A stretch of 64,000 nt of DNA from Candidatus Gastranaerophilales bacterium (GCA_944324425.1 CALUWE010000004.1:1-64000), one strand, 5' to 3'; shown: positions 46,160 to 62,787, counted from the first letter of the stretch. A program made the numbers and translations. Notes: generated from the letters alone by a model not told the origin.

Positions 46160-46217
46160 ATTTTGCCCCCTTTCTTTTTTATAATTGTAGTAGAAAAAAA
46201 TAAAGCTCGCAATTATT

Positions 46218-46246
46218 TTGCATTTAAAAAAAATTCCTACTATAAT
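46218..46246 (+). promoter_or_regulatory. promoter of the GT39 pair (leaderless geometry)
   Basis: TTGCAT (46218-46223), 17-base spacer, consensus TATAAT (46241-46246), then seven bases (TTTTTCT) and the ATG at 46253. Transcription should start at or next to the A of the ATG, with no room for a Shine-Dalgarno sequence. Confidence 0.7.
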
Positions 46247-46252
46247 TTTTCT

Positions 46253-48253
46253 ATGAAATCAAATAAAACTTATATTTTTTGGGGGTTGGCGGCTCTTGTT
46301 GTTTTTCTTTTTGTTCTTGTAATAAAGAATATTCTTCCGTCTAATCTTCCTAAATATCCCGTTTTTCCGACGGTTTATAATGCCGTCAATGTTATTTTGG
46401 ATACAAAAACAAACAACAATGATGATATTATTTTAAAAGTTAATGATGAATATTATTCCGTTCCGAATTCGAAAGAACTTTTAAACAAAACAATTAAATA
46501 TAAGACCGACAAAATAAGCATTCTTGTTGATAAAAATTTCAAAAATGAAATTAAAAATATTGTTATTTTTAATGACCTGAAATCTTTCTATTTCAATGAC
46601 TTTTCAAAATTTGATAAAAAAGAAAGTGAACTTTGTTTAAATAACAATTGCAAAGTTTATTATGAATACGACATTTCAGACCATGTTAAATATAACAGAA
46701 ATGCAAGTTCAATTAATTTTCATTCAAACACAAATTTGATTTGCAATATAGTTTTGTCGCTTTTTTCGGGAAGCTTGATTTTTGCGGTTCCTTATATTTT
46801 GCTCTTTATTTTGATAATTTATTTTATAAACAATAAAAAAGAGATTAAAATATTCAAATTTAACCCTTACATTTTAACGGTTTTAATTTTTCTGTTCGGT
46901 AGTTTAATGTATTCAAACGGAATGCTTGATTATCTTCCTTGGCCTGATGAATACAGAACAATTGAATATTCGGATCCGAAGCTTCCTTTTATGACTATTT
47001 TTACAGACCCCGGAAACCCGCCTTTATTTTATCTTTTATTCAGAATTTTTATAGGATTTTTTGGCGTTTCAATTTTAACCATGAAATTATTCCCCTTTAT
47101 TATAGGAATTTTAGCCATTTTTATAATGTGGCTGATTTTAAAATGCGAATTTGATATAAAAACCGCAAATATTGGCGCATTTTTAGCCTTTATCAATGTT
47201 CCTTTGGTTTATTACAGCGAAGAAACAAGAAGTTATATTCTGCAGGCATTGTTTTCGCCGGTTTTAATTTGGACTCTTTTTAGAATTTTAAACACAAATA
47301 AGAAAAAGTATTATTTTATATATGCAATTTTAGCAGCCGTCATTTCAAATATTCATTATTATGAAATTTTGCTTTTGGTTTCAATTTTTATTTACGCTTT
47401 TATTTATTTAATAATTCAAAAAAGATATTTTGATATTTTTAAATTTTTCTTAGCGAACCTTTTTGGTGCAATTTGTTTTTTACCCTTTTTCATTTTAACC
47501 GCATTTAATAAAGCGCTTGTTGACAGTTCTTTTAACAATTGGATTCCCCCTATTTGCTTTAATCAAATTAAAAAGTGCACTTACTATATTTTTGGCGGCT
47601 TGGCCTCATTCCTAATTTCTGCTTTTGTTTTCATTAAAACAATTCTTAAAAACGAAATTCAAAACGAAAGAAGAAATAATTATATAATCTGCCTGTTTTC
47701 GGTTATTTTAATGACGATTATTCAAGGAGTTATTTTATCTTATTCAATTCGCCCAATGCTTGTTGAAAGATATCTTCTTTTGTTATCGCCTTTATTCATA
47801 ATGTTTTTAGCCATTGTATTTACAAAAAAATACAATAATAAATTTGCGGTAATCTTCTTTTTAATTTGGGTCATTTTAATTCAAGCGGGTTCATTTGAAA
47901 AAAACAACAGAAGAAAAGGAATTTTAGAAAATCCTTTAAGATTTTCAAAACAGTATTATGAAAATAAAGAAAAAAACGAAAATATTTATGCAATTTTAAA
48001 CATCTCAAACCCTGAATACCTTGAAAATAAAGATGATTATATGAATGAAAATATAACATATATTTCAAGATCAATTTTTATAGCTCAGGAAACAATAGAT
48101 GAAATTTTAAATAAAGATAAAAATGCGGTTATTTTTACATCAACTTTATCTGCGGATGAAAAAAATTCCAAAACTCCCGATAACTATAAATGTTATTTTA
48201 ATTCTTCGACAGACCTTTGTTTGTGGAAAATAACAGGGGTGAAAAATAAGTAA
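46253..48253 (+). CDS. GT39/ArnT-like membrane glycosyltransferase, copy 1
   Basis: 666-residue polytopic protein of the dolichyl-phosphate-mannose/ArnT-like (GT-C) group, transferring a sugar from a lipid carrier outside the membrane. Anchor helix 7-27; an extracytoplasmic domain about 30-160 with two close Cys (ELCLNNNCKVYYEY); then about 11 helices. The catalytic acidic motif is in LPWPDEYRTIEYSDP (DE), with PGNPPLFYLLFRIFIG and YSEETRSYILQALFS as conserved loops. Start ATG at 46253 is chosen because the promoter overlaps the longer frame. The stop overlaps the next gene's ATG (TAATG); that gene is a full-length paralogue. Confidence 0.82.
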   Translation: MKSNKTYIFWGLAALVVFLFVLVIKNILPSNLPKYPVFPTVYNAVNVILDTKTNNNDDIILKVNDEYYSVPNSKELLNKTIKYKTDKISILVDKNFKNEIKNIVIFNDLKSFYFNDFSKFDKKESELCLNNNCKVYYEYDISDHVKYNRNASSINFHSNTNLICNIVLSLFSGSLIFAVPYILLFILIIYFINNKKEIKIFKFNPYILTVLIFLFGSLMYSNGMLDYLPWPDEYRTIEYSDPKLPFMTIFTDPGNPPLFYLLFRIFIGFFGVSILTMKLFPFIIGILAIFIMWLILKCEFDIKTANIGAFLAFINVPLVYYSEETRSYILQALFSPVLIWTLFRILNTNKKKYYFIYAILAAVISNIHYYEILLLVSIFIYAFIYLIIQKRYFDIFKFFLANLFGAICFLPFFILTAFNKALVDSSFNNWIPPICFNQIKKCTYYIFGGLASFLISAFVFIKTILKNEIQNERRNNYIICLFSVILMTIIQGVILSYSIRPMLVERYLLLLSPLFIMFLAIVFTKKYNNKFAVIFFLIWVILIQAGSFEKNNRRKGILENPLRFSKQYYENKEKNENIYAILNISNPEYLENKDDYMNENITYISRSIFIAQETIDEILNKDKNAVIFTSTLSADEKNSKTPDNYKCYFNSSTDLCLWKITGVKNK

Positions 48254-50208
48254 TGAATAAAATATCCAAAACTTTTTATTTTTTATGTTTCGTTTTTGTT
48301 TGTCTTTTAATCAATTCATTCTTTTTAATTGCAAAAGAAATAAGCCCCTTAAATAACTACTCTTCTGTCTTTAACCCTATATGTGTTATTATTGAATTAA
48401 AGAAAGAGTCTGATTTTAAACCCGTTTTAAAAGTTAATAACGAATTTATAAACTTTGAAAATAAAAACAATCAGCTGAAAGCTTCAAGCGCAAAAAATAT
48501 AAAATCGCTTGACATATTAATTGAAAAAGAGCTTGAACAAGATATAAAAAATATAGTAGTTTTTAACGATACAAAATTAAATTATTTTAAAGATTTTTCT
48601 TCTTTTAAAAAAAGCGATTATTTGCTTTGCAACTCTAAAGGCTGCAAAAATTATCTGAAATATGAATTTCCGAAAAGTGTTAAATATAATGAAAATTCTT
48701 CTTCTTATAATTTCAAAAGCTATATAAACATTTTTTCAGCGGAATTTTTGTCTTGCTTTGTATTAAAACCTTTTATTTTTCTTCCGTTTTTATTTTTAAT
48801 TTTTATAACTTTTTACTTTGTCAAAAATAAAAATGAAATAAGCTTGCCAAAAATTAACTCTTGGCTTGTTTTTGCGCTTATTTTTGCGGCAGGAAGCTTA
48901 ATCAGATTCAACGAACTTTTTTCATATCCTTTAGAATTGGATGAGTCTGCTTCAATTTATTTTTCAGACCCCAAAAAAGACATTTGGTACACGTTTGATG
49001 ATGCCGGAAACCCGCCTTTATTTTATTTAATGCTCAGGTTGTGGCTGTCTGCTTTTAATGTCAGCCTTGTTTCTGCCAAACTTTTCCCTTTTATTATAAG
49101 CTTATTCGGAAGTTTTTTCTTATGGTTATTTTTAAAAAAAGAATTCAGTTTAAAAACCGCCAATTTAGGTTTGTTTTTAGCTTCCGTTAATTTGCCTTTG
49201 ATTTATTTTTCAAACGAAGTAAGAAGCTATATTCTACAAGCCGCTATTGTTCCTTTTATTGTTTATGTCTTATTCAAAATTATTGATACAAATAAACCGA
49301 AATACTATGTCTTTTACGCTGTTTTAGCCGCAATAATATCAAATATTCATTATTACGGAATTCTTTTATTAATTTCGAATTTTCTGTATTTAACCTGCTT
49401 TTTTATTTATAAAAAAAGAGGTCTTGATATTTTAAAATTTTTTATAGCAAACCTTTACGGCATTTTATTTTTTATTCCGTATTTTTTTGGAATTGCAAAC
49501 GAAAATGCACTAAACAACACCAATTTTAACGACTGGATTCCAAAAGTTTCAATTGGCCAAATTAAAACCTGTCTTATGTATATTTTTGGCGGCGGCATTT
49601 CTTTTATTTTGAGTTTGGTTTTCTTTTTAAAAAATTTATTCAAAGAAAATTCCAAAGAAAAAAGAATGGTTATTTATTCTTTTTCCATAATTGTTTTAAC
49701 CTTTCTTCTTTCGGTGATATTCTCTCTAATTATTCGCCCGCTTATGGTTGAAAGATATTATATTTTGATTTTACCTTTATTTATAATCTTTTTAACTTGT
49801 ATATTTACATCAAAATATAAAAATAAATATGCGGTAATTCTTTTTATATTGTGGTTTTTTATTATTCAAACAAATGCAAAAGAACCTGTTGACAGAAGAT
49901 ATGGGATAATTAACCATCCCTTAAGCATTTCTTATTATTATGAAAATAAAGATAAGAATATTTATGTTGTAACAAATCAAAGCGAAGAAAATTTGAAATT
50001 CGGGTTTGAAAAATTTATAAAAAAAGATGTTAACTATGTTCAGGATTTAACCTTGTCTGCAGAAAAAACGGTTTATGAAATTTTAGACAAAGATAAAAAT
50101 GCGGTTATTTTTACATCTTTGATTCAAAACCCAAAAAGCCTTGTTAAAAATGCAATTCATTATTACAACCCCGCAACAAAAAGCATTCTGTATAAAGTTG
50201 AAAATTAA
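48253..50208 (+). CDS. GT39/ArnT-like membrane glycosyltransferase, copy 2
   Basis: 651 residues, colinear with the preceding protein along its length: the same N-terminal extracytoplasmic domain with paired Cys (YLLCNSKGCKNYLKYE), the acidic motif LELDESASIYFSDPKKD, AGNPPLFYLMLRLWLS and FSNEVRSYILQAAI, FNDWIPKVSIGQIKTC, and the C-terminal RPLMVERYYILILPLFIIF. Evidently a tandem duplication followed by strong divergence. The N-terminal domain between helix 1 and helix 2 is not part of the core GT-C fold and may bind acceptor or partner. Same transcript as copy 1. Confidence 0.82.
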   Translation: MNKISKTFYFLCFVFVCLLINSFFLIAKEISPLNNYSSVFNPICVIIELKKESDFKPVLKVNNEFINFENKNNQLKASSAKNIKSLDILIEKELEQDIKNIVVFNDTKLNYFKDFSSFKKSDYLLCNSKGCKNYLKYEFPKSVKYNENSSSYNFKSYINIFSAEFLSCFVLKPFIFLPFLFLIFITFYFVKNKNEISLPKINSWLVFALIFAAGSLIRFNELFSYPLELDESASIYFSDPKKDIWYTFDDAGNPPLFYLMLRLWLSAFNVSLVSAKLFPFIISLFGSFFLWLFLKKEFSLKTANLGLFLASVNLPLIYFSNEVRSYILQAAIVPFIVYVLFKIIDTNKPKYYVFYAVLAAIISNIHYYGILLLISNFLYLTCFFIYKKRGLDILKFFIANLYGILFFIPYFFGIANENALNNTNFNDWIPKVSIGQIKTCLMYIFGGGISFILSLVFFLKNLFKENSKEKRMVIYSFSIIVLTFLLSVIFSLIIRPLMVERYYILILPLFIIFLTCIFTSKYKNKYAVILFILWFFIIQTNAKEPVDRRYGIINHPLSISYYYENKDKNIYVVTNQSEENLKFGFEKFIKKDVNYVQDLTLSAEKTVYEILDKDKNAVIFTSLIQNPKSLVKNAIHYYNPATKSILYKVEN

Positions 50209-51960: not shown

Positions 51961-53478
51961 ATGGTAATTAAGGTTACAAGCGCAAATTCAATAGGCCTTA
52001 CGGTTCATAAAATTTTAGTTGAAGCGGATGTTACAAATTCGCTTCCTCAAGTTGTGATTGTAGGGTTAGGGGATACTGCCGTTTCGGAAGCAAAAGAAAG
52101 GTTGAAGCTTGCAATTAAAAATTCAGGTTACAGTTTCCCAAATACAAAAGTTGTAATTAATTTAGCCCCCGCCAACCTTAAAAAAGAAGGTGTTATTTAT
52201 GATTTAGCAATGGCTGTCGGCATTTTAGGAAAAGAAAAAATTATTCAAAATGTGCCAGATAATATTGCATTTTTAGGGGAATTATCCCTAGATGGTTCTA
52301 TTCGCCCTGTTAATGGGGTTTTAGCCATAGTTTCCGAGTTAAAAAATTTCAAAATCGATAAAGTTATAGTGCCTTATGAAAATTTGCCTGAGGCAAGCTT
52401 TGCAGATAATATTGAAATTTATGGCGCAAGAAACCTTATTGAAGTTGTTGAATTTTTAAATAACAATCAAGAGTTAAAACAATTAAAACAAAATGTTGAT
52501 GATTTTTTAAATACGGATTATGAATTTGAAAACGATTTTAAAGATATAAAAGGGCAATCGCAAGCTAAAATGGCACTTGAAATAGCTGCAGCTGGGGGGC
52601 ATAACGTTTTAATGTCAGGGTCCCCCGGTAGCGGCAAAACAATGCTTGCACGTGCTTTTGTTTCAATTCTTCCCCCTTTAACAAAAGAAGAAGCAATTGA
52701 ATTAACTAAAATTTATTCTATAGCAGGCTTATTGGATTCAAAAACACCCTTAATTACAAAAAGACCGTTCAGATCGCCCCACCATAGCGCATCATCCGTT
52801 GGAATTACAGGGGGCGGTTCAATTCCAAAACCGGGGGAAATTACCCTTGCACATAGAGGCGTTTTATTTTTAGATGAAATGCCTGAATTTCAAAGAACGG
52901 TTTTGGAAGTTTTAAGACAGCCATTAGAAGAAAATTTCGTTACCATATCAAGAATACAAAACACAATAAAATACCCCGCAAATTTCATTTTAATAGGTGC
53001 TATGAACCCATGCCCGTGCGGCTTTTTAGGGGATAAAAAGAAAGCTTGCACATGTTCTGAGTTTCAAATAAATAGATACAAAGGCAAATTATCAGGCCCT
53101 TTATTAGATAGAATTGATATTCAAATTAATGTTCAAAGGCTCACTGATGAAGAACTTTTGAATATGAAAAACGATGGCGAAACATCAAATATCATAAGAA
53201 AAAGAGTGATAGCTGCAAGAAAAATTCAGCTTGAAAGATATAAAAATGACAACATCTATACAAATTCAGAATTAACGCCAAAATTAATTAAAAAATATTG
53301 TAAAATTGATGATGAAATAAAAGCTTTATTAAAAGGCGCAATTAATAGGTTTAATCTATCTGCCAGAAGCTATGACAGATTGTTAAAAATTTCAAGAACA
53401 ATAGCAGACCTTGATGGTTCCATTGATATTAAACAAGAACACGTTATAAAAGCCTTAACTTTTAGAGGGTTAAATTAA
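51961..53478 (+). CDS. comM: ComM/YifB-type Mg-chelatase-like AAA+ ATPase
   Basis: 505 residues. N-terminal Lon-protease-like fold (VEADVTNSLPQVVIVGLGDT near 22-41; VVINLAPANLKKEG), AAA+ core with Walker A MSGSPGSGKTMLARA near 218, FRSPHHSASSVGITGGG near 270, Walker B LFLDEMPEF near 302, zinc-like Cys in NPCPCGFLGDKKKACTC near 350 and a C-terminal helical domain (YDRLLKISRTIADLDG). ComM is a branch-migration helicase helping integration of DNA during natural transformation. It converges on the nuclease gene with a 9-base 3' overlap. Confidence 0.93.
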   Translation: MVIKVTSANSIGLTVHKILVEADVTNSLPQVVIVGLGDTAVSEAKERLKLAIKNSGYSFPNTKVVINLAPANLKKEGVIYDLAMAVGILGKEKIIQNVPDNIAFLGELSLDGSIRPVNGVLAIVSELKNFKIDKVIVPYENLPEASFADNIEIYGARNLIEVVEFLNNNQELKQLKQNVDDFLNTDYEFENDFKDIKGQSQAKMALEIAAAGGHNVLMSGSPGSGKTMLARAFVSILPPLTKEEAIELTKIYSIAGLLDSKTPLITKRPFRSPHHSASSVGITGGGSIPKPGEITLAHRGVLFLDEMPEFQRTVLEVLRQPLEENFVTISRIQNTIKYPANFILIGAMNPCPCGFLGDKKKACTCSEFQINRYKGKLSGPLLDRIDIQINVQRLTDEELLNMKNDGETSNIIRKRVIAARKIQLERYKNDNIYTNSELTPKLIKKYCKIDDEIKALLKGAINRFNLSARSYDRLLKISRTIADLDGSIDIKQEHVIKALTFRGLN

Positions 53479-54045
53479 TTTATTTATAATTTGAACTATT
53501 TTTTCTTTTGCTTCATTTAATTTATTTTCATCAATATTAATTTCAAATTTTTCATTTTTTAAAATGGAATAATAAACCATTTTTATATTTTTTGTTTTAT
53601 ATAGTTTTGATAAAGAATAAATATAGACAAGCGTTTGAATGTCAGAACTTGGATTTTTTGGAAGATTATTTATTTTCCAATCTAAAATATAATAGGTTTC
53701 ATTTTTTTTAATAACGGCATCAAATCTTCCCGTTAAATATTTATCGTTGATTTTTACAAAAAAAGGCTGTTCTATAAATTTTTCATCTGCTGATATTGCA
53801 AATTTTACAATTTCAGAATTTATAAATTGTTCTAAAGTTTGAAGTTCAGCATTATTAAACGCTTTTTTAAATTTTTCAATATCAAAATTTTTAAGGTAAT
53901 AGCAAATAATATTGTGGAATTTATTTCCAACCTTTAATTCTTCATTGTCTTCAATTAAATAAAGGTTAGATAGGTATTTCATTTTAAATTCCTGAATGGA
54001 GCTATCTAAAATTTTTAGAGAATTTGCACTAAATGTATCTAACAT
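53470..54045 (-). CDS. stand-alone PD-(D/E)XK nuclease of RecB/Cas4 type
   Basis: 191 residues with the RecB-family nuclease pattern: KFHNIICYYL (upstream His), EQPFFVKINDKYLTGRFDAV (Asp in GRFDAV), ETYYILDWKI (the D-x-K core) and DIQTLVYIYSL (Gln motif). In AddAB/RecBCD this domain is fused to the C terminus of a helicase; here it is its own gene overlapping the large helicase by 7 bases, with GGGGG before its ATG. Expected to work with that helicase at DNA ends. No C-terminal Fe-S Cys set is present, unlike AddB or Cas4. Confidence 0.85.
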   Translation of the reverse strand: MLDTFSANSLKILDSSIQEFKMKYLSNLYLIEDNEELKVGNKFHNIICYYLKNFDIEKFKKAFNNAELQTLEQFINSEIVKFAISADEKFIEQPFFVKINDKYLTGRFDAVIKKNETYYILDWKINNLPKNPSSDIQTLVYIYSLSKLYKTKNIKMVYYSILKNEKFEINIDENKLNEAKEKIVQIINKLI

Positions 54046-57000
54046 AATTCCCCCTTTAAAATTTCAAAAATTTTAGATGCCTTTACATTTGTTTTTTTAT
54101 TAAAAATTTTATATTCCAGTGCCGTTGTTATATAAATTTCATTTCTTGCCCTTGTAAGCCCCACATAAAAAAGCCTTAGGTTTTCATCTATAATATCTTG
54201 TTTTTTATTTTCTTCTTTATTGTTGTTTAAATTTAGAGTTATTTTAACTTCATCTTTCAATTTAATTTCATCTAAACTAAGGCCTAAATTTTTATCATAC
54301 ATATTTGGAATAAAAACGTAATCAAATTCATCCCCTTTTGATTTATGAAGGGTCATAACATAAATTTCACCTTGTTTTGTTTCATCGTTATCATCAATTA
54401 ATTTTAAATTAAAGCCGCCTTTTTTGTTTATTTCATTCATTTTATTTAAAGTTTCTTCAAAGTTCCCTGCTGTTGCATAAATTTTTGAAACAACGGATGA
54501 AATTGGCGCTATATTTATTTTTTTTATTTTATTGTTTCTAAAATAAAATTCACCAATTTTAAATGCAAGTTCAACTACAGGCAAAGTTACAAGCTCTAAA
54601 AAATATCTTAAATCCCACCAATAGGGGGAATCTTCATTGTTTTCCAGAATAAAAGGTGAATTTTGGTTTTTAATTTTTTCAATTAATTCAATTTCATTTT
54701 TATAAAAACCAAGGTCTATTAAGGTTTTTAGGTTGTTTGAAATAATAATATTGTTCATTGGGTTTGAAATAAAATTAAAAATAGCTAAAACCGCCTTAAA
54801 AACAGGGTTTTGAGAAATACTATCCGATTTTGTGATAATTTTTGCATCTATATTTTCTTTTAAGTATTGAGCAAAAATTTCAGCTTCTTTATTTGTTCTT
54901 GTTAAAATGCCAATTGTCGCATTTTTATCATTTTCTTTAATTTCAATTATTTTATCTTTTATAAATTTCTTTTCATCTTCTTCAAAATCAAAAATTTTCA
55001 ATTTAACGGCATTGTTATTAACAATGTTTTTCCCCTCAATTGGTTTTGTTTCAATTTCAAAAAATGAAGTTTTTGAAACTTTTAAGCCCCTTTTAATTAA
55101 ATCATTTGCAGCGTTTATAACCCCTGTTGAATTTCTTGCGGTAAAATTCATTGTAACATTTTCGCTTTTTTCAATGAATTTTTTAAACCCTTTAGTGTCA
55201 GAATTTGTAAATGTGGATGTTATTGCTTGGTTAATATCGCCGCAGCGAATAATGTTTCCAAATTTATGGGCAATTATATTAATTAATTCTTGCTGAATTT
55301 CGCTTGAATCTTGCGCTTCATCTTCAATCACAACTTTGGCTAAATTTTGGTAATATTCCCTTATTTTAGAATTTGTTTTTAAAAGTTCCAAAGATAAAAT
55401 TAAAAGGTCATCATAATCTATTAAATTTAATTCTTTCAAAGAATTTTGGTATTTTTGATAAATTCTTTTAAAAGAAGGGGTTAAAAGTTCATAATTTTTG
55501 AATTTTGAATTTTTAAAGCTTGAAATTGCCCTTTCATAATTTTGGGCATTTTTTGGGTCAAAGCCTTCATTATATAAAATTTCTGTTATTAACTTTAATT
55601 TTTTAATTTCATCAATAATATCAAAATCAACATCTAGCCCCAAATGCGCATGGTTATTATTTTCTCTTAAAATTCTCATAGAAAGCCCATGGATTGTTGA
55701 AATGTTTGGAAGTTCAGACATATCGGGAAATGTATTTTTAATTCTTTCTCTAAAAGTTCTTGCGGCAGAATCCATATATGTTAAAACAAAAATGTTATCG
55801 GGGGCTATTCCTTTTTCTAAAAGTTTTATAATGAGTGCAAGCATTATTGTTGTTTTGCCGGCGCCTGCCACTGCCGTTACTGCCATTAACCCTTTTTCAT
55901 ATTCTAAAACGGGCTTTTGATCAGGCCTTGGGGCTATATTAAATTTTGGAGTTGTTTTTTTATTTTCAACAAAAAAATGTTTTATCCCTTTAAAATTTTC
56001 ATTGCCTAAAAAATTATAAATGGATGACAATAAAATTATTTCACCATCTTGAAGAAGATATAATTTTCTCATCATTCTTGCAATTTTGTTGTTTGTTAAA
56101 TTAATGTTATCATCCAGCGTGAAATCTTTTTTAATTCTGTTTTTTTGAAAAACCCAAGCGTTATATAATGGGCCTATATCTTGTTTTATCCAGTTAGCGT
56201 TTGTTGAATCAAATAAGAAAAGATATTTTGATTTAATTTTAAAATCAATGGCTTTTTGCAAACTTGAAACATTAACTGCGTTTTCTTTTAATTCATCTTC
56301 AAAAATGGGGTTTTCAGATATTATTGTGTTTTCCAACTGAATTAAAAGTTCAGATTTATTAAAGGTTTTAAAAATGTCCTCAAAATCTCTTAATTGCTTT
56401 AAAAGACGGTTAATTTTTTCATAATCCGTTTTATTATTTTCATTTTTTTCAATGAATAAATTTGTTATTTTAAATAAAATTTCAGATAATTTTTTATCTT
56501 TCAATTCTTCTTTTAAATTTAAAAATTCTTTTGTTTTGCCAATTTCAATGTAGGTTTCTAAAATTTCAAAAATATTTTTTGCGCCAAAATCTGCTTCATA
56601 GGTTTGTGCAATTTTTATACTGTCATCCAAACTAAAGCCTAAAACCTGCCCCAATAAGCCTTTTAATTTGTAGGGAGAAATTTTAAAATTGGCTGGCTCT
56701 ATAATTAATTTCATTATTGAAATTAAGGCTGAAACCGTTTTATTTTCTTCAATTTTTTCACTTCCTGTTATAAAATTTATTTCAGAATTTATTTTATCCA
56801 AATAAAATTTTAAAAATTGGTCATTTTCAGGGATTACAATTAAAATATCACTCGGTTTAACACTTTTATCCAAAAGCGAATTAACGGAATTTATAAGATA
56901 TTCTGCCATCTCATCCGCTCTTATAAATTCTTTATTTTTCAAGTTTTCTAAAACAACGGGGGAATTATTTGAAATGTTATTATAAATTTCATCCCCTTTT

Positions 57001-57788
57001 TTATCATCTTCCAAAATAATTGGCGTTTCACATAAAAAGGCTTCAAAATCGCTATCTTGAGCGCAAAGATAACCAACCCTTGAACCCCCTTTTTTATCAG
57101 CTGCTATAAAAAATTCTTTAACATCTTTTTTAATAAAATTCAGATAATCAAAAATTAAAGGGGTTATTTCATCGCCGTCATCTAAAAAAACGTATTTATA
57201 AGGATTGGGGGAATTTTTAAAAATGTATGAAAAAAGTTGCGCTTGCCTTAGGTAATCAAAGGCTCTATATTTTAGAGTTTCTTTTTTATACATATTAAGT
57301 GCAAAATTAACATCAGATGTAAAAGATTCCCTTAAAATTTTTGTTCTTTCTTTAATTTCATCATCAGATAAATCGTTCATTGTAATTAAAGAAAGCCTTC
57401 TTAAAAGCTGATGCAAAAGGTTTACCTTTGAATTGTACCCTTTAAAATTAATTTTATCTATCGCATTTTTAAAAATGTATCTTGAAGCCTCTAGTCCGCA
57501 AGTTTTAGGTGAAACAACAACACCATCATAATTTATTTTTTCTTCAATTAAAGGGTAAAATTCTAAAAGTTTATTATAACAAAGCCCAAAATAAGAATAG
57601 ATGTTGAATTTTGTAATGGCTTCAATTTTTAAAAGTTTTTTTGTTTTTTCAATAAATTCATTTTTTAATTTTGAATTTTGAACAAGAACCAAAATTTCAT
57701 CTGAACTAACGCCTGAATTTAAAAGGTTAGAATATTTTTCAATTAAAATTTCTGTTTTATTTGTTTTTAGATTGCCAAAAATAAGCAT
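54039..57788 (-). CDS. two-module SF1 helicase: AddB-like dead half plus UvrD/AddA-like half
   Basis: 1249 residues. The N-terminal about 600 residues look like an inactivated helicase of the AddB type: a degenerate P-loop GNLKTNKTEILIEKY near 5-19, LVLVQNSKLKNEFIEK, YKYVFLDDGDEITPLIFDYL (a motif II remnant), DILIVIPENDQF, and KYLFLFDSTNANWIK. From about 625 a full active SF1A helicase begins: Walker A TAVAGAGKTT near 637, Ia VFVLTYMDSAARTF, ISTIHGLSMRIL, II IEDEAQDSSEIQQ near 820, III RCGDINQAI, IV NFTARNSTG, V VMTLHKSKGDEFDYVFIPN near 1150, VI RLFYVGLTRARNE near 1205. No nuclease domain; a separate nuclease gene follows. Likely an end-processing recombination helicase replacing AddAB/RecBCD. 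Confidence 0.8.
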   Translation of the reverse strand: MLIFGNLKTNKTEILIEKYSNLLNSGVSSDEILVLVQNSKLKNEFIEKTKKLLKIEAITKFNIYSYFGLCYNKLLEFYPLIEEKINYDGVVVSPKTCGLEASRYIFKNAIDKINFKGYNSKVNLLHQLLRRLSLITMNDLSDDEIKERTKILRESFTSDVNFALNMYKKETLKYRAFDYLRQAQLFSYIFKNSPNPYKYVFLDDGDEITPLIFDYLNFIKKDVKEFFIAADKKGGSRVGYLCAQDSDFEAFLCETPIILEDDKKGDEIYNNISNNSPVVLENLKNKEFIRADEMAEYLINSVNSLLDKSVKPSDILIVIPENDQFLKFYLDKINSEINFITGSEKIEENKTVSALISIMKLIIEPANFKISPYKLKGLLGQVLGFSLDDSIKIAQTYEADFGAKNIFEILETYIEIGKTKEFLNLKEELKDKKLSEILFKITNLFIEKNENNKTDYEKINRLLKQLRDFEDIFKTFNKSELLIQLENTIISENPIFEDELKENAVNVSSLQKAIDFKIKSKYLFLFDSTNANWIKQDIGPLYNAWVFQKNRIKKDFTLDDNINLTNNKIARMMRKLYLLQDGEIILLSSIYNFLGNENFKGIKHFFVENKKTTPKFNIAPRPDQKPVLEYEKGLMAVTAVAGAGKTTIMLALIIKLLEKGIAPDNIFVLTYMDSAARTFRERIKNTFPDMSELPNISTIHGLSMRILRENNNHAHLGLDVDFDIIDEIKKLKLITEILYNEGFDPKNAQNYERAISSFKNSKFKNYELLTPSFKRIYQKYQNSLKELNLIDYDDLLILSLELLKTNSKIREYYQNLAKVVIEDEAQDSSEIQQELINIIAHKFGNIIRCGDINQAITSTFTNSDTKGFKKFIEKSENVTMNFTARNSTGVINAANDLIKRGLKVSKTSFFEIETKPIEGKNIVNNNAVKLKIFDFEEDEKKFIKDKIIEIKENDKNATIGILTRTNKEAEIFAQYLKENIDAKIITKSDSISQNPVFKAVLAIFNFISNPMNNIIISNNLKTLIDLGFYKNEIELIEKIKNQNSPFILENNEDSPYWWDLRYFLELVTLPVVELAFKIGEFYFRNNKIKKINIAPISSVVSKIYATAGNFEETLNKMNEINKKGGFNLKLIDDNDETKQGEIYVMTLHKSKGDEFDYVFIPNMYDKNLGLSLDEIKLKDEVKITLNLNNNKEENKKQDIIDENLRLFYVGLTRARNEIYITTALEYKIFNKKTNVKASKIFEILKGELC

Positions 57789-59813
57789 TTATAATACATC
57801 CATAGGGTCAACATCTACAACCATTTTAATATCGTTTGGCAAAATTACTTTTTTTAAAAAACTTAAAATGGTGAAATGCCCCTTTTCATCCAGTTTATTT
57901 TTAACTATTATATTAAACCTGAACTCCCCTTTCAACTTTTCTATAACGCAAGGAACAGGGCCTAGAACAATTAATCTTTCCGTTAAAGAAAGTTTTTCAA
58001 TCCAATCTTTAAGGCGCATGGTTATTTCCATTGAAGCTCTTTGGGCTCTAAAAATATTATTCGATTTTAAAATAATTCTTATAATTGATGAAAAAGGCGG
58101 ATAATCAAATAGTTCTCTTGTTTCAATTTCATTTTCATAGAAGGTTTTATAATCTTGTTTTTTAGCATTTATTAAAAATTCATTATCTGCATTAAAGGTT
58201 TGAAAAATAACTTCCCCTTTGTTTTCGCCCCTGCCCGAGCGCCCTGCAACTTGGGTTAAAATTGAAAAGCCACGTTCTGTGCTTCTAAAATCTGGCAGAT
58301 TAAAGCTAAGGTCAGCATTTATAACACCAACCAAGGTTACATTCGGGTTATCCAACCCTTTTGCAATCATTTGAGTGCCGATTAAAATGTCAATTTTCCC
58401 ATCCCTAAAATCGTTTAAAATTTCAACATGTTCATTTTTTTTAGATAGTGCATCTGAATCAAGCCTTTTTATATTGGCACCTTTAAAAATTGTTCTTGCA
58501 ATTTCTTCCACTCTTTCACTTCCTGCGCCAAAATTTTGAAGGGCGTCTGTTTCACATTTTGGGCAGATGTCTAAATTTTTAAGTTCAAAATTACAATAAT
58601 GGCACTTATGAGAATTTGTTGATGAATGATAAATTAAAGGTATGGCGCATTTTGGGCATTCAATAACACTGCCGCAATTTAAGCATTGAGTATAAGTTGA
58701 AAAGCCCCTTCTATTTATAAGTAAAATTGTTTGTTCATTATTTTCAATTCTATCATTTATTTTATCTATCAAAAATTTTGAAAAAAGCCCGTTATTTTTA
58801 AACTGCCGCTCCATCCTCATATCAACAACGGTTACTTTTGGAAGAGAAGCATTATTATACCTTTGTTTTAGTTCAAACAAAGAATTTGAATTAACCGCCC
58901 TATAATAATTTGAAATATCAGGCGTTGCAGAGCCTAAAATAACTTTTGCTCCATATAAAGCCCCCAATTTTTTTGCAACCTCAACTGCATTATATCTTGG
59001 TTCTTTTGCATCTTGCTTGTAGCTATCATCATGTTCTTCATCTAAAATAATAAGCCCTAAATTTTTAATTGGCGCAAAAACGGCAGAGCGGGCGCCAAAT
59101 AAAATTTTAATTTCATCAGACCTTAATTTTTGCCAAACAGCGTATTTTTCAGCTTCTGTAATAGATGAATGCCAAATTGCAACGGGGTCTTTTCCAAACC
59201 TTTTAATTGTTCTTATTGTTAATTGCGAAACAAGGGCAATTTCAGGCGCTAAAAATAAAACGTTTTTGCCTTTTTTTATTGTATCTTCAATTAATTTAAA
59301 ATAAACTTCCGTTTTGCCTGAACCCGTTATACCGTAAAGTAAGCTTACAGGCGCATTTACATAGGTTATTTCATTATAAATTTTTTCTTGTTCGTCTGAT
59401 AATTTATGAACAGCATTTTCATCAAATTCTGTTTCAAAAATAATTTGTTTCTTTTTTGGGGTTCTATAATTTTTAACATTTTTTTCAAAAAATTTAGATG
59501 GCAATGCCGTTTTTAAAACGGTTGGAAGGTCTGAAAAATAATAGTTTGAAACCCATTCTAAAAGTTTTAGGTATTCAAGATTAAACATTGGTTCAAAATC
59601 AAGAATATCTTTTATATATTTTGCTTTTATCCCTTCTTCCAAATAATCTGAAAACCCAACAACATAGGCTTTTATTTCTCTTGATTTACCAAAAGGAACA
59701 AGAACAGGAATTCCTATATTTATTTTATCTTTCATATTATCTGGAATTAAATATGAAAAAGTTTTTGTTCCTAAAGTTTTTATATCAACAAGGCATAGGG
59801 CATATTTTTTCAT
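57789..59813 (-). CDS. priA: primosomal replication-restart helicase PriA
   Basis: SF2 3'-5' helicase that reloads replication forks. 674 residues: N-terminal DNA-binding domain (TKTFSYLIP, GIPVLVPFGKSREIKAYVVG), Walker A LYGITGSGKTEVYFKL near 160, Walker B ILDEEHDDSYKQ near 256, zinc-binding Cys array (CLNCGSVIECPKC…HKCHYC…CPKC) about 380-425, IGTQMIAKGLDNPNVTLVGV near 475 and QVAGRSGRG near 520. The stop is directly followed by the helicase ATG; the start overlaps the small secreted protein gene by 4 bases. Confidence 0.94.
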   Translation of the reverse strand: MKKYALCLVDIKTLGTKTFSYLIPDNMKDKINIGIPVLVPFGKSREIKAYVVGFSDYLEEGIKAKYIKDILDFEPMFNLEYLKLLEWVSNYYFSDLPTVLKTALPSKFFEKNVKNYRTPKKKQIIFETEFDENAVHKLSDEQEKIYNEITYVNAPVSLLYGITGSGKTEVYFKLIEDTIKKGKNVLFLAPEIALVSQLTIRTIKRFGKDPVAIWHSSITEAEKYAVWQKLRSDEIKILFGARSAVFAPIKNLGLIILDEEHDDSYKQDAKEPRYNAVEVAKKLGALYGAKVILGSATPDISNYYRAVNSNSLFELKQRYNNASLPKVTVVDMRMERQFKNNGLFSKFLIDKINDRIENNEQTILLINRRGFSTYTQCLNCGSVIECPKCAIPLIYHSSTNSHKCHYCNFELKNLDICPKCETDALQNFGAGSERVEEIARTIFKGANIKRLDSDALSKKNEHVEILNDFRDGKIDILIGTQMIAKGLDNPNVTLVGVINADLSFNLPDFRSTERGFSILTQVAGRSGRGENKGEVIFQTFNADNEFLINAKKQDYKTFYENEIETRELFDYPPFSSIIRIILKSNNIFRAQRASMEITMRLKDWIEKLSLTERLIVLGPVPCVIEKLKGEFRFNIIVKNKLDEKGHFTILSFLKKVILPNDIKMVVDVDPMDVL

Positions 59814-60166
59814 TTAATTGCCTCAGTTGGAAGGTTATATAAATTGTTTTGAATTTCTGTAAAAATTAAATTTCTGATATCAGCCAAAGGCGAATCTTGT
59901 TTTGATTTTGTAATTTTTATATTGGCTGTATTATTGCCGTTATTTGAAACCATTATTAAATATTCATCACCCATTGGCGTTTTAAATAAAATGTAGCCAC
60001 TTGTTGATTGCATTTCAACAATTTTATAGTTTAATTTTTGAATTGAAGATAACGTAACCATAAAAAGGTTATCCGCTGACATTGAAAAGTTTTTGGAATC
60101 TGCCGTTTTAGATAAAACAGGAAGCCCCAAAAAAAGAATTAATAATAAAATGTAAAATTTTCTCAT
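59810..60166 (-). CDS. small secreted protein within the polA-priA operon
   Basis: 118 residues with a clear signal peptide (RKFYILLLILFLGLPVLSKT, cleavage near residue 20-22). The mature part is an alpha/beta domain of about 95 residues (NLFMVTLSSIQKLNYKIVEM, SGYILFKTP, EYLIMVSNNGNNTANIKITK). This is similar in style to small periplasmic proteins that evaluate 'STSGYILF' type beta-sheets, but I recognise no family. It overlaps polA and priA by four bases on each side, an unexpected place for an exported protein. Confidence 0.75.
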   Translation of the reverse strand: MRKFYILLLILFLGLPVLSKTADSKNFSMSADNLFMVTLSSIQKLNYKIVEMQSTSGYILFKTPMGDEYLIMVSNNGNNTANIKITKSKQDSPLADIRNLIFTEIQNNLYNLPTEAIK

Positions 60167-62787
60167 TTGCTCTCCATCCAGCTTTTGCCCGTTTTAATTT
60201 CAACATCCAAAGGAACATCCAAGGGTTGGTTTAATTGCATTGAAGCTAAAACAATTTCTTTAACTTCTTCAACATCATTTTTATGAACCTCTAAAACAAG
60301 CTCATCATGCACTTGAATTATAATATTTGCCCTGTAATTTTTCAATTTTTCATCCAAATCAACCATTGCCATTTTAATAAGGTCAGCGCTTGTCCCCTGC
60401 AATGGCGCATTTATTGCGGCTCGTTCCGCAAATTCTCTGATTTTTGCATTTCTTGAATTTAATTCTTCTTTTAGATATCTTCTTCTTCCAAATAATGTTT
60501 CAACGTAACCTGTTTGGTGCGCTTCCATTAAAGTGTTTGTTATATAGGAGCTTATTTTTGGATATTGCCTGAAATATTTATCAATAAATTCCTGCGCTTC
60601 AAATGGAGATATATTAAGGGAAGATGCCAAACCATACCTTGTTTGGCCGTATATTATACCGAAATTAACGGTTTTTGCTTTTCTTCTCATATCTTTTGTA
60701 ACTGAATTTATATCAACCCCAAAAATTTTGGCTGCCGTAACGGAATGAATATCATCATGGTTTATAAATGCATTTTTCAAGGTTTCATCGCCTGAAATGT
60801 GCGCTAAGAGCCTTAATTCAATTTGAGAATAATCTGCTGATAATATTTCATAATCGCTGTTTTTTGCAACAAAAGCAGCTCTTATTCTATTTGAAAATTC
60901 GGTTCTGATTGGAATATTTTGTAAGTTCGGATCTGAACTTGATAATCTGCCTGTTGCGGTTACTGTTTGATTATAGTGGGTGTGGATTCTATTATCTTCT
61001 TTAACAAGCTTTGGCAGGTTATCAACATATGTTGTTTTTAGCTTCATATAGGTTCTATGCTCTAAAATATCCCTTGCAATTTGGTTGGTTTCTGCAAGTT
61101 CTTCCAAGATTTTAGCGTTTGTTGAATAGCCCGTTTTATTTTTCTTTTTCGGTTTTATGTTTAAAACATTGAATAAAACATCTGCCACTTGTTTTGGCGA
61201 ATTTATGTTAAAGTTAACCCCTGCCTCATCATATATTTTTGTTTCATACTCTTTTATTTTTTCATCAATCTCATCATTCAATTTTTTCATATAATCTGAA
61301 TCGATTGAAACACCAACCGCTTCCATTTTGTATAGAACGTATGCAAGCTTTAATTCTAAGGCGGCAAGTTTTTTTTCTCTATCCGTTAATTTTTCACTAT
61401 ATATATTTGACAGGTCATAAATGCACCCTGCCAAAATATATGGGTCATTTGGTTCAATAATATCTAAAAAGTTTTGAATTTGGCTTATTAAATCCGATTT
61501 TCTTGATGAATCCAAAACATAGCTTGAGAGCATAATATCATCAATAACGCCATCTATTTTATTAAATTTATGAAGGGTTGATTTTATATCAAACGCAATT
61601 TTTTTAATTTCGGGGTTGTTTAAAATTTCAAGGGCTTCATTAACCCCTAATTTTGAACATTCAATATCGTTTGCAAAATAGCAAAAATCTCCTTCAATAT
61701 AAAATGAAATTTTATTTTCCAAATTGAAATTTTTAAATTCAACTTCATTTCTTTTTTTTGTTTCAGATTTTTTATTTTTAATTTCAATATCACCAAAAAG
61801 AGAAGTTTGAAAGGGTTCAATTTCAATATCATCGTCTTTAAATTGAACAATGTTATCTTCATTATTTATTTCAACAGCTTCATTTTTGCACATAAAAGGG
61901 GTTAACAATTTATCAATGTTTTTCACGAAACTGTAAAATTGAAGGCTTTTAAAATATTCAATAACATTTTTCTTATCTTCAATTTCTAAGCAGGTTGAAT
62001 TGAAGTTAAAATCAATGTCTACATCTTGTTTAATTGTTGCCAAAAATTGTGAAAGATAAGCTGTTTCTTTTTCATTTTTCAATTTTTCAACAACGGATTT
62101 TTTAGATATTTCATCAATATGAGAATAAATGTTATCTAAAGTTTTATATTCTTTAAGCAAGCTTACTGCCGTTTTTGGGCCAATTCCTTTAACGCCCGGA
62201 ATGTTATCGGATGTATCGCCGCAAAGCGCTTTATAATCTATAACCTGATTTGGGTAAACTTCCAGTTTTTCATAAACTTTATCCCAACTATATTCAATAA
62301 GCTCCCCTTTTGACGGAATTAAAACCTTGATAAAGCCTTCTTTATCAACAAGCTGAAGAGAATCTCTGTCGCCTGTTAAAATGTATGTTTTATGTCCTAA
62401 TTCTTTTGCTTTTTTTGAAATTGTGCCTATAATATCATCGCCTTCAAAGCCTTCTTTTGTGTAGATTGGAATATTCAGGGCTTTTAAGCCTTCCATAATT
62501 AAAGAAAGTTGGGGGCGGAGGGAATCGGGCATTGACTCTCTGTTTGCTTTATAGTCTTCATATTTTTCAAGACGGAAAGTGTGTCTTGAAACATCAAAGG
62601 CAACTGCTATATTATCAGGTTTTATTAAGCCTTTATTATTCAACATATCAAAAATTGCTTTAAAAAAACCAAAAACAGCCCAAGTAGGCGTGTGGTCAGT
62701 TGTTTGCATATTGGTTCGCTCAAGCGCAAAAAACATTCTGAATGACAGCGCATGCCCGTCTATTAATATTAAAGTTTTTGAATTCAT
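60163..62787 (-). CDS. polA: DNA polymerase I
   Basis: 874 residues. 5'-3' exonuclease (1-290) with ILIDGHALSFRMFFAL, YKANRESMPD and GDTSDNIPGVKGIGPKTA; a middle 3'-5' exonuclease-like domain (about 330-470); family A polymerase with motif A SADYSQIELRLLAHISGD near 645, motif B RRKAKTVNFGIIYGQ near 700 and motif C IIQVHDELVLEV near 823. The proofreading domain lacks the DxE of motif I (the strand reads ISFYIEGDFCYFA) so it is probably inactive, as in Taq and Bacillus Pol I. Roles: Okazaki fragment maturation and repair. GGGGAAG precedes the ATG; the stop overlaps the small secreted gene. Confidence 0.95.
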   Translation of the reverse strand: MNSKTLILIDGHALSFRMFFALERTNMQTTDHTPTWAVFGFFKAIFDMLNNKGLIKPDNIAVAFDVSRHTFRLEKYEDYKANRESMPDSLRPQLSLIMEGLKALNIPIYTKEGFEGDDIIGTISKKAKELGHKTYILTGDRDSLQLVDKEGFIKVLIPSKGELIEYSWDKVYEKLEVYPNQVIDYKALCGDTSDNIPGVKGIGPKTAVSLLKEYKTLDNIYSHIDEISKKSVVEKLKNEKETAYLSQFLATIKQDVDIDFNFNSTCLEIEDKKNVIEYFKSLQFYSFVKNIDKLLTPFMCKNEAVEINNEDNIVQFKDDDIEIEPFQTSLFGDIEIKNKKSETKKRNEVEFKNFNLENKISFYIEGDFCYFANDIECSKLGVNEALEILNNPEIKKIAFDIKSTLHKFNKIDGVIDDIMLSSYVLDSSRKSDLISQIQNFLDIIEPNDPYILAGCIYDLSNIYSEKLTDREKKLAALELKLAYVLYKMEAVGVSIDSDYMKKLNDEIDEKIKEYETKIYDEAGVNFNINSPKQVADVLFNVLNIKPKKKNKTGYSTNAKILEELAETNQIARDILEHRTYMKLKTTYVDNLPKLVKEDNRIHTHYNQTVTATGRLSSSDPNLQNIPIRTEFSNRIRAAFVAKNSDYEILSADYSQIELRLLAHISGDETLKNAFINHDDIHSVTAAKIFGVDINSVTKDMRRKAKTVNFGIIYGQTRYGLASSLNISPFEAQEFIDKYFRQYPKISSYITNTLMEAHQTGYVETLFGRRRYLKEELNSRNAKIREFAERAAINAPLQGTSADLIKMAMVDLDEKLKNYRANIIIQVHDELVLEVHKNDVEEVKEIVLASMQLNQPLDVPLDVEIKTGKSWMESK

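Follow-up and report, generated by a model that had tools for sequence, protein, structure and literature searches.

RecBCD, AddAB and AdnAB are the described bacterial machines for double-strand-break resection that come closest to the locus analysed here. In AdnAB of the mycobacterial type, AdnA and AdnB each carry a motor and a nuclease. In AddAB of the Bacillus subtilis type, a live SF1A motor is combined with a dead SF1A fold and RecB-family nuclease activity, AddA and AddB each ending in a nuclease domain, while RecBCD has one nuclease, a lead motor and one dead SF1A subunit, RecC. AddB and RecC use their dead helicase domains to search the single strand for Chi (PMC4824097). Among cyanobacteria, recBCD occurs in marine Prochlorococcus and Synechococcus, and model cyanobacteria are reported to lack recB, recC or recD (PMC5101192). 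In Clostridiales, UvrD is found with a Cas4-like (pfam12705) nuclease, either fused or in an operon, and a role in DNA repair was suggested for the unfused operon (Hudaiberdiev et al. 2017, PMC5704561).

A stretch of 64,000 nt (the window) from a Candidatus Gastranaerophilales genome (Cyanobacteriota; 1.84 Mb, 30 contigs, 97.9% complete) contains a fused helicase gene followed by a nuclease gene. With a probability of roughly 70%, these genes are the version, found in Gastranaerophilales, of an undescribed helicase-nuclease with three components whose task is to resect double-strand ends for RecA recombination. No paper on the three-gene system was found in literature searches.

The fused helicase and its nuclease in Gastranaerophilales

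The initial annotation had described a degenerate P-loop half and a complete UvrD-type motor within 1249 residues, with a 191-residue RecB-type nuclease in the next, overlapping gene, and both descriptions agree with the ORF coordinates, motifs and Pfam matches (Table 1). The two ORFs share 7 nt, within ATGTTAG. UvrD-helicase and UvrD_C matched residues 623-873 (E 6e-53) and 1092-1223 (E 5e-28) of the long chain, the N-half searched alone matched UvrD-helicase weakly over residues 11-233 (E 5e-6), and the 191-residue protein matched PDDEXK_1 above the cutoff (E 1e-10).

Table 1. Features of the helicase-nuclease locus and its neighbours in the window
Feature	Position	Strand	Remarks
ComM/YifB-type Mg-chelatase-like AAA+ protein	51961-53478	+	converges on the nuclease gene, 9 nt overlap
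PD-(D/E)XK nuclease (gene3 equivalent), 191 aa	53470-54045	-	PDDEXK_1 match; catalytic residues kept
Fused helicase, 1249 aa	54039-57788	-	degenerate SF1A half and UvrD-type motor predicted from motifs to be active
Helicase C-half (gene2 equivalent), from residue ~618	54039-55949	-	complete UvrD-type motor, EDEAQDS and RxGDxNQ[AS]I
Helicase N-half (gene1 equivalent), residues 1 to ~617	55936-57788	-	four-domain SF1A fold
priA	57789-59813	-	directly upstream of helicase; TAA stop touches helicase ATG
118-aa protein	59810-60166	-	between polA and priA, overlaps each by 4 nt
polA, DNA polymerase I with 5'-3' exonuclease domain	60163-62787	-	first of the same-strand run

All helicase motifs are present in the C-half, including AVAGAGKTT, IEDEAQDS, RCGDINQAI and GLTRAR. 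In the N-half, motif I reads GNLKTNKT, a degenerate Walker A with the glycine lost, and motif II reads LDDGDE, without the DExx glutamate; its AlphaFold model (pLDDT 88.6) has a complete SF1A fold. Dead and live motor are held at a ratio of 1:1 by their fusion in one chain. In the nuclease, H44, E92, D109, D122, K124, Q137 and Y141 are intact and invariant across 17 aligned sequences, and the Fe-S cysteines of most relatives are absent.

The fused gene is present in most of 58 related genomes searched and is usually followed directly by the nuclease gene, which argues that the pairing of dead and live motor with a nuclease is not due to chance. The nuclease gene is placed elsewhere in six genomes (G032, G033, G035, G039, G041 and G056). 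The window's family includes two genera, g48 and g17, that keep the fused helicase but in which no convincing gene3 was found (G240, G268, G270, G274, G282, G232, G024 and G246). The priA gene lies directly upstream of the fused helicase in eight Gastranaerophilales loci. The 118-aa protein between polA and priA has an apparent signal peptide, and elsewhere in the window two adjacent paralogous membrane proteins of 696 and 651 aa, GT39-type glycosyltransferase-like, are encoded at 46163-50208 (+).

Most nucleases of the relatives carry the four-cysteine pattern of AddB/Cas4 Fe-S nucleases; the cysteines were lost in the window's genus and two related genera (L018, L019), with a separate loss in L032, and the catalytic residues remain in each case. 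Every N-half sequence read from the window's family has a degenerate motif I, as does family f6, but the motif is intact in families f2, f3, f4 and f7 (GPLKSGKT, GPPGTGKT and APLGSGKT, for example), and motif II lacks the DExx glutamate in every member of the order read, whatever the state of motif I. Nucleotide binding by the N-half was therefore probably ancestral and lost at least twice, and the catalytic glutamate would have gone before it. The loss of Walker A in gene1 and of the Fe-S cysteines in the nuclease is read as derived. The order offers a natural series, from unfused with Walker A through fused with Walker A to fused with Walker A lost, in which one can ask what a second, non-translocating motor contributes in such enzymes.

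Unfused relatives and the ancestry of the helicase halves

The parent layout consists of gene1 (degenerate SF1A, ~700 aa), gene2 (motor, ~750 aa) and gene3 (Fe-S PD-(D/E)XK, ~275 aa), and homologues of all three were found at the window, the gene2 equivalent bearing both signature motifs. In genome G068 they are three separate overlapping genes in that order (673, 712 and 280 aa), and in G088 gene2 adjoins gene3 with gene1 elsewhere. A profile search with the N-half recovered stand-alone gene1 proteins of ~660-750 aa in other Cyanobacteriota. In eight cyanobacteria examined, gene1 and gene2 were dispersed in 8/8 and gene3 was present in 7/8; the gene adjoining gene1 in most cyanobacterial loci read is presumably pcxA. 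A gene2 scan of the genome collection revealed all three genes as an operon in at least ten Chloroflexota, most of them Anaerolineae and one of them Pelolinea submarina, whose genome is complete. A single MAG labelled Syntrophothermus has the operon too, and Vampirovibrio MAGs have fused forms. What looked like a gene2-gene3 fusion in L138 proved to be a scaffold gap of Ns. The unfused relatives carry the nuclease as a separate gene and the fusion of gene1 with gene2 is the derived state, so that the earlier description of the nuclease as "split off" had the direction the wrong way round.

Directly after gene3, recJ was found in nine loci with room for it (Chloroflexota and L164) and close by in two more, with L166 as a locus that has room but no recJ; RuvX, ssb and a DnaQ-type exonuclease lie near the operon in several Chloroflexota and L164 loci. 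These neighbours bear on the proposal that the helicase is a UvrD/Rep-like accessory or replication-restart enzyme working with PriA, its nuclease processing stalled forks and not double-strand ends. In the window's genus and in one further genus, priA and polA stand directly upstream, and the motor is nearest to the PcrA/Rep/UvrD models among the family models compared, but elsewhere the helicase genes have recJ, RuvX and ssb for neighbours, the host genome has a separate PcrA, and the distribution in Cyanobacteriota is a mirror image of that of RecC, making this proposal very unlikely.

The gene2 proteins share EDEAQDS and RxGDxNQ[AS]I, in place of which PcrA has VDE[YF]QDTN and VGDxDQSIYS. 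In an IQ-TREE PMSF tree, gene2 including the C-half formed one group (27 rows, support 100/99) that excluded PcrA, five AddA, one sampled AdnA and a second UvrD-nuclease of the host genome, so that the label "AddA-like" given to the C-half in the initial annotation was not supported. The 1249-aa chain scored 79 against the AddA NCBIfam cutoff of 708 and 74 against the RecB cutoff of 696, with no match to the AddB NCBIfam model.

The gene1 groups matched each other over their full length (hhalign, E 1e-33 to 1e-65). Their profile scores were 66/45/33 to AddB versus 104/75/63 to gene2, and PcrA was mostly matched better than AddB too. Structural comparison of the N-half model with Foldseek gave E-values favouring UvrD and TM-scores slightly favouring AdnB (0.66) and AddB (0.65), the highest seen, over UvrD (0.52-0.61); with the whole chain, UvrD matches to the C-half dominated. 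Against PDB sequences, the N-half profile gave weak UvrD-family matches only (Rep, E 0.035). No gene1-specific family was found in NCBIfam or Pfam, the latter giving generic matches only. Given these profile scores, which favour gene2 and PcrA over AddB, and the structure comparison, the most fitting view of gene1 is as an SF1A protein that degenerated separately, perhaps a duplicate of gene2, and not as AddB by the tests available. For the term "AddB-like" applied earlier to the N-half, the fold agrees with that of AddB, and the AddB profile match ranked below gene2 and PcrA.

True descent from AddAB, by fusion of AddB with AddA, loss of the AddB nuclease and detachment of the AddA nuclease, would explain an order of dead motor, live motor and nuclease that recalls addB-addA, as well as the TM-scores to AddB and AdnB and the AddB/Cas4-type four-cysteine signature in most relatives of the nuclease. 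It is nonetheless unlikely, as gene2 groups apart from AddA, gene1 scores lower to AddB than to gene2, and the relatives are three separate genes and not AddA plus AddB; an AddB/AddA ancestry of the fused chain was left unsupported by both profile comparison and tree. The best reading is that the complex would work like AddAB without being AddAB: it resembles that system in its live motor, dead SF1A fold and RecB-family nuclease, but has two motors in one chain and one free-standing nuclease gene, with the motor outside the AddA group and a dead half that is not AddB-specific by profile. AdnAB likewise has UvrD-like motors and RecB-family nucleases, but differs in that here both motors lie in one chain with the nuclease separate.

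Distribution and relation to RecBCD

The gene1 and gene3 tallies, counted by hand from tables, covered 292 Cyanobacteriota genomes at E<=1e-8, a threshold used because PcrA proteins also score with the N-half profile; the hits in G016 and G325 (E ~1e-7) are probably such cross-matches. Both genes were present in 221/292 genomes and both absent in 50/292, so that presence agreed in 271/292; gene3 alone occurred in 16/292 and gene1 alone in 5/292. RecC was found in 40/292 genomes, 35 of them in family f35, whose small genomes were judged to be Prochlorococcus/marine Synechococcus-like, and all 35 lacked both gene1 and gene3. Among the five RecC-bearing genomes outside f35, gene1 was present in 3/5 and gene3 in 5/5. 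This pattern agrees with the published survey (PMC5101192); as it mostly reflects a single replacement in one family, the contrast with RecC is suggestive and is not a count of independent events. In genus g9 (G016 and G325) and family f9 of the same class (G126, G143, G153, G276 and G280), gene1, gene3 and RecC all seem to be missing.

The three-gene system is not simply exclusive, since G334, G339 and G341, three Chloroflexota that have gene2 or the whole operon, also encode large AddA-like helicases with a PDDEXK_1 protein next to them; no AddB was found in Pelolinea. In the host genome, a search by family found no AddAB or RecBCD elsewhere, bearing out the earlier expectation: RecC (PF04257) was absent, and the best RecD score was 18 bits against a cutoff of 310. 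UvrD-helicase matches comprised PcrA (contig C25), a 1007-aa UvrD-nuclease (C5), both halves of the 1249-aa chain, a DNA2-like protein (C6) and a 698-aa UvrD-like ORF (C29), and PDDEXK_1 was matched only by the window's nuclease and the C5 protein. The window's system is like RecBCD in having one nuclease, one dead SF1A component and a lead motor, and is taken to serve the same step; it differs in lacking a second active motor, in a host without RecC or RecD over the cutoff, and in a distribution that mirrors RecBCD in Cyanobacteriota. On the strength of that distribution and of the operon with recJ in Chloroflexota, the three genes are concrete candidates for the missing resection activity of most cyanobacteria and could be tested in Synechocystis, Anabaena or Synechococcus elongatus.

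Proposed function and related helicase-nucleases

What the analysis shows directly is the sequences and fold, the state of the motifs, orthology, operon structure and co-occurrence, and the case for resection builds on these. Favouring it are an apparently active motor, a dead motor and an intact nuclease in one putatively translation-coupled unit; the same-strand run with polA and priA, and the recJ, RuvX, ssb and DnaQ-type neighbours elsewhere; and the co-occurrence of gene1 with gene3, the RecC pattern of f35 and the failure to find AddAB or RecBCD in the host genome. Counted against it are the g48 and g17 genomes without convincing gene3, and the second motor-nuclease on C5. In cyanobacteria proper, where the three genes are scattered, joint action rests on co-occurrence and orthology. 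A DNA end-resection complex had been proposed at the outset; a role in end resection is probable from the parts, context and distribution, and it is the proposed ancestry that fell away.

In the proposed mechanism, the gene2 motor would translocate and unwind from a DNA end, presumably with the 3'-5' polarity of SF1A members. The gene1 half, its hydrolytic motifs lost, would serve as a fixed partner that holds a separated strand and channels it towards the nuclease, as AddB and RecC do with their dead helicase domains, and the RecB/Cas4-type nuclease would dock on the complex and trim the strands, leaving a 3' tail for RecA. Complex formation, the DNA-end substrate and RecA loading are what we infer from these parts. 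The initial annotation, which suggested that the dead half could read a Chi-like sequence, had proposed a search for an over-represented octamer; none was convincing in 464 kb of the host genome, with blocks oriented by weak GC skew.

There is an even chance that RecBCD, AddAB and AdnAB are joined by this system as a fourth class of machine for resecting double-strand breaks in bacteria, made up of a dead SF1A protein, a motor of the UvrD family and an Fe-S nuclease encoded on its own. It would be the end-resection enzyme of most cyanobacteria and many Anaerolineae, missing where marine Prochlorococcus/Synechococcus-like genomes carry RecBCD, and made more compact by fusion in Gastranaerophilales.

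An anti-phage helicase-nuclease of the UvrD-Cas4 or Gabija-like kind would fit the PADLOC results, in which the motor matched GajB-type UvrD and the nuclease matched Cas4, both generically, and UvrD-Cas4 fusions are known from defence contexts (PMC5704561). Cyanobacterial gene1, however, has no PADLOC match, the gene set is kept across a phylum, and the neighbours are housekeeping repair genes, so a dedicated defence function is highly improbable. A resection enzyme could still degrade phage DNA ends as a by-product, by analogy with RecBCD.

The Clostridiales operon resembles the window's genes in pairing a UvrD-like motor with a pfam12705 Cas4-like nuclease, but no dead-motor partner is named in the text on it (PMC5704561), and this operon could be an instance of the three-gene system in which gene1 went unseen. 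Compared with the UvrD-Cas4 fusions, motor and nuclease are separate genes at the window, and the fused layout is found in the host's C5 protein (L009:6362-9385 (-)), a single 1007-aa chain of UvrD and PD-(D/E)XK with four cysteines, which may overlap in function with the window's pair. Its gene stands alone between prs and yebC-like genes and is present across the window's genus, and the protein forms a long branch in the motor tree. The 698-aa UvrD-like protein of contig C29 (L041:861-2957 (-)) lies on a 3.1-kb contig, adjoining a 239-aa ORF.
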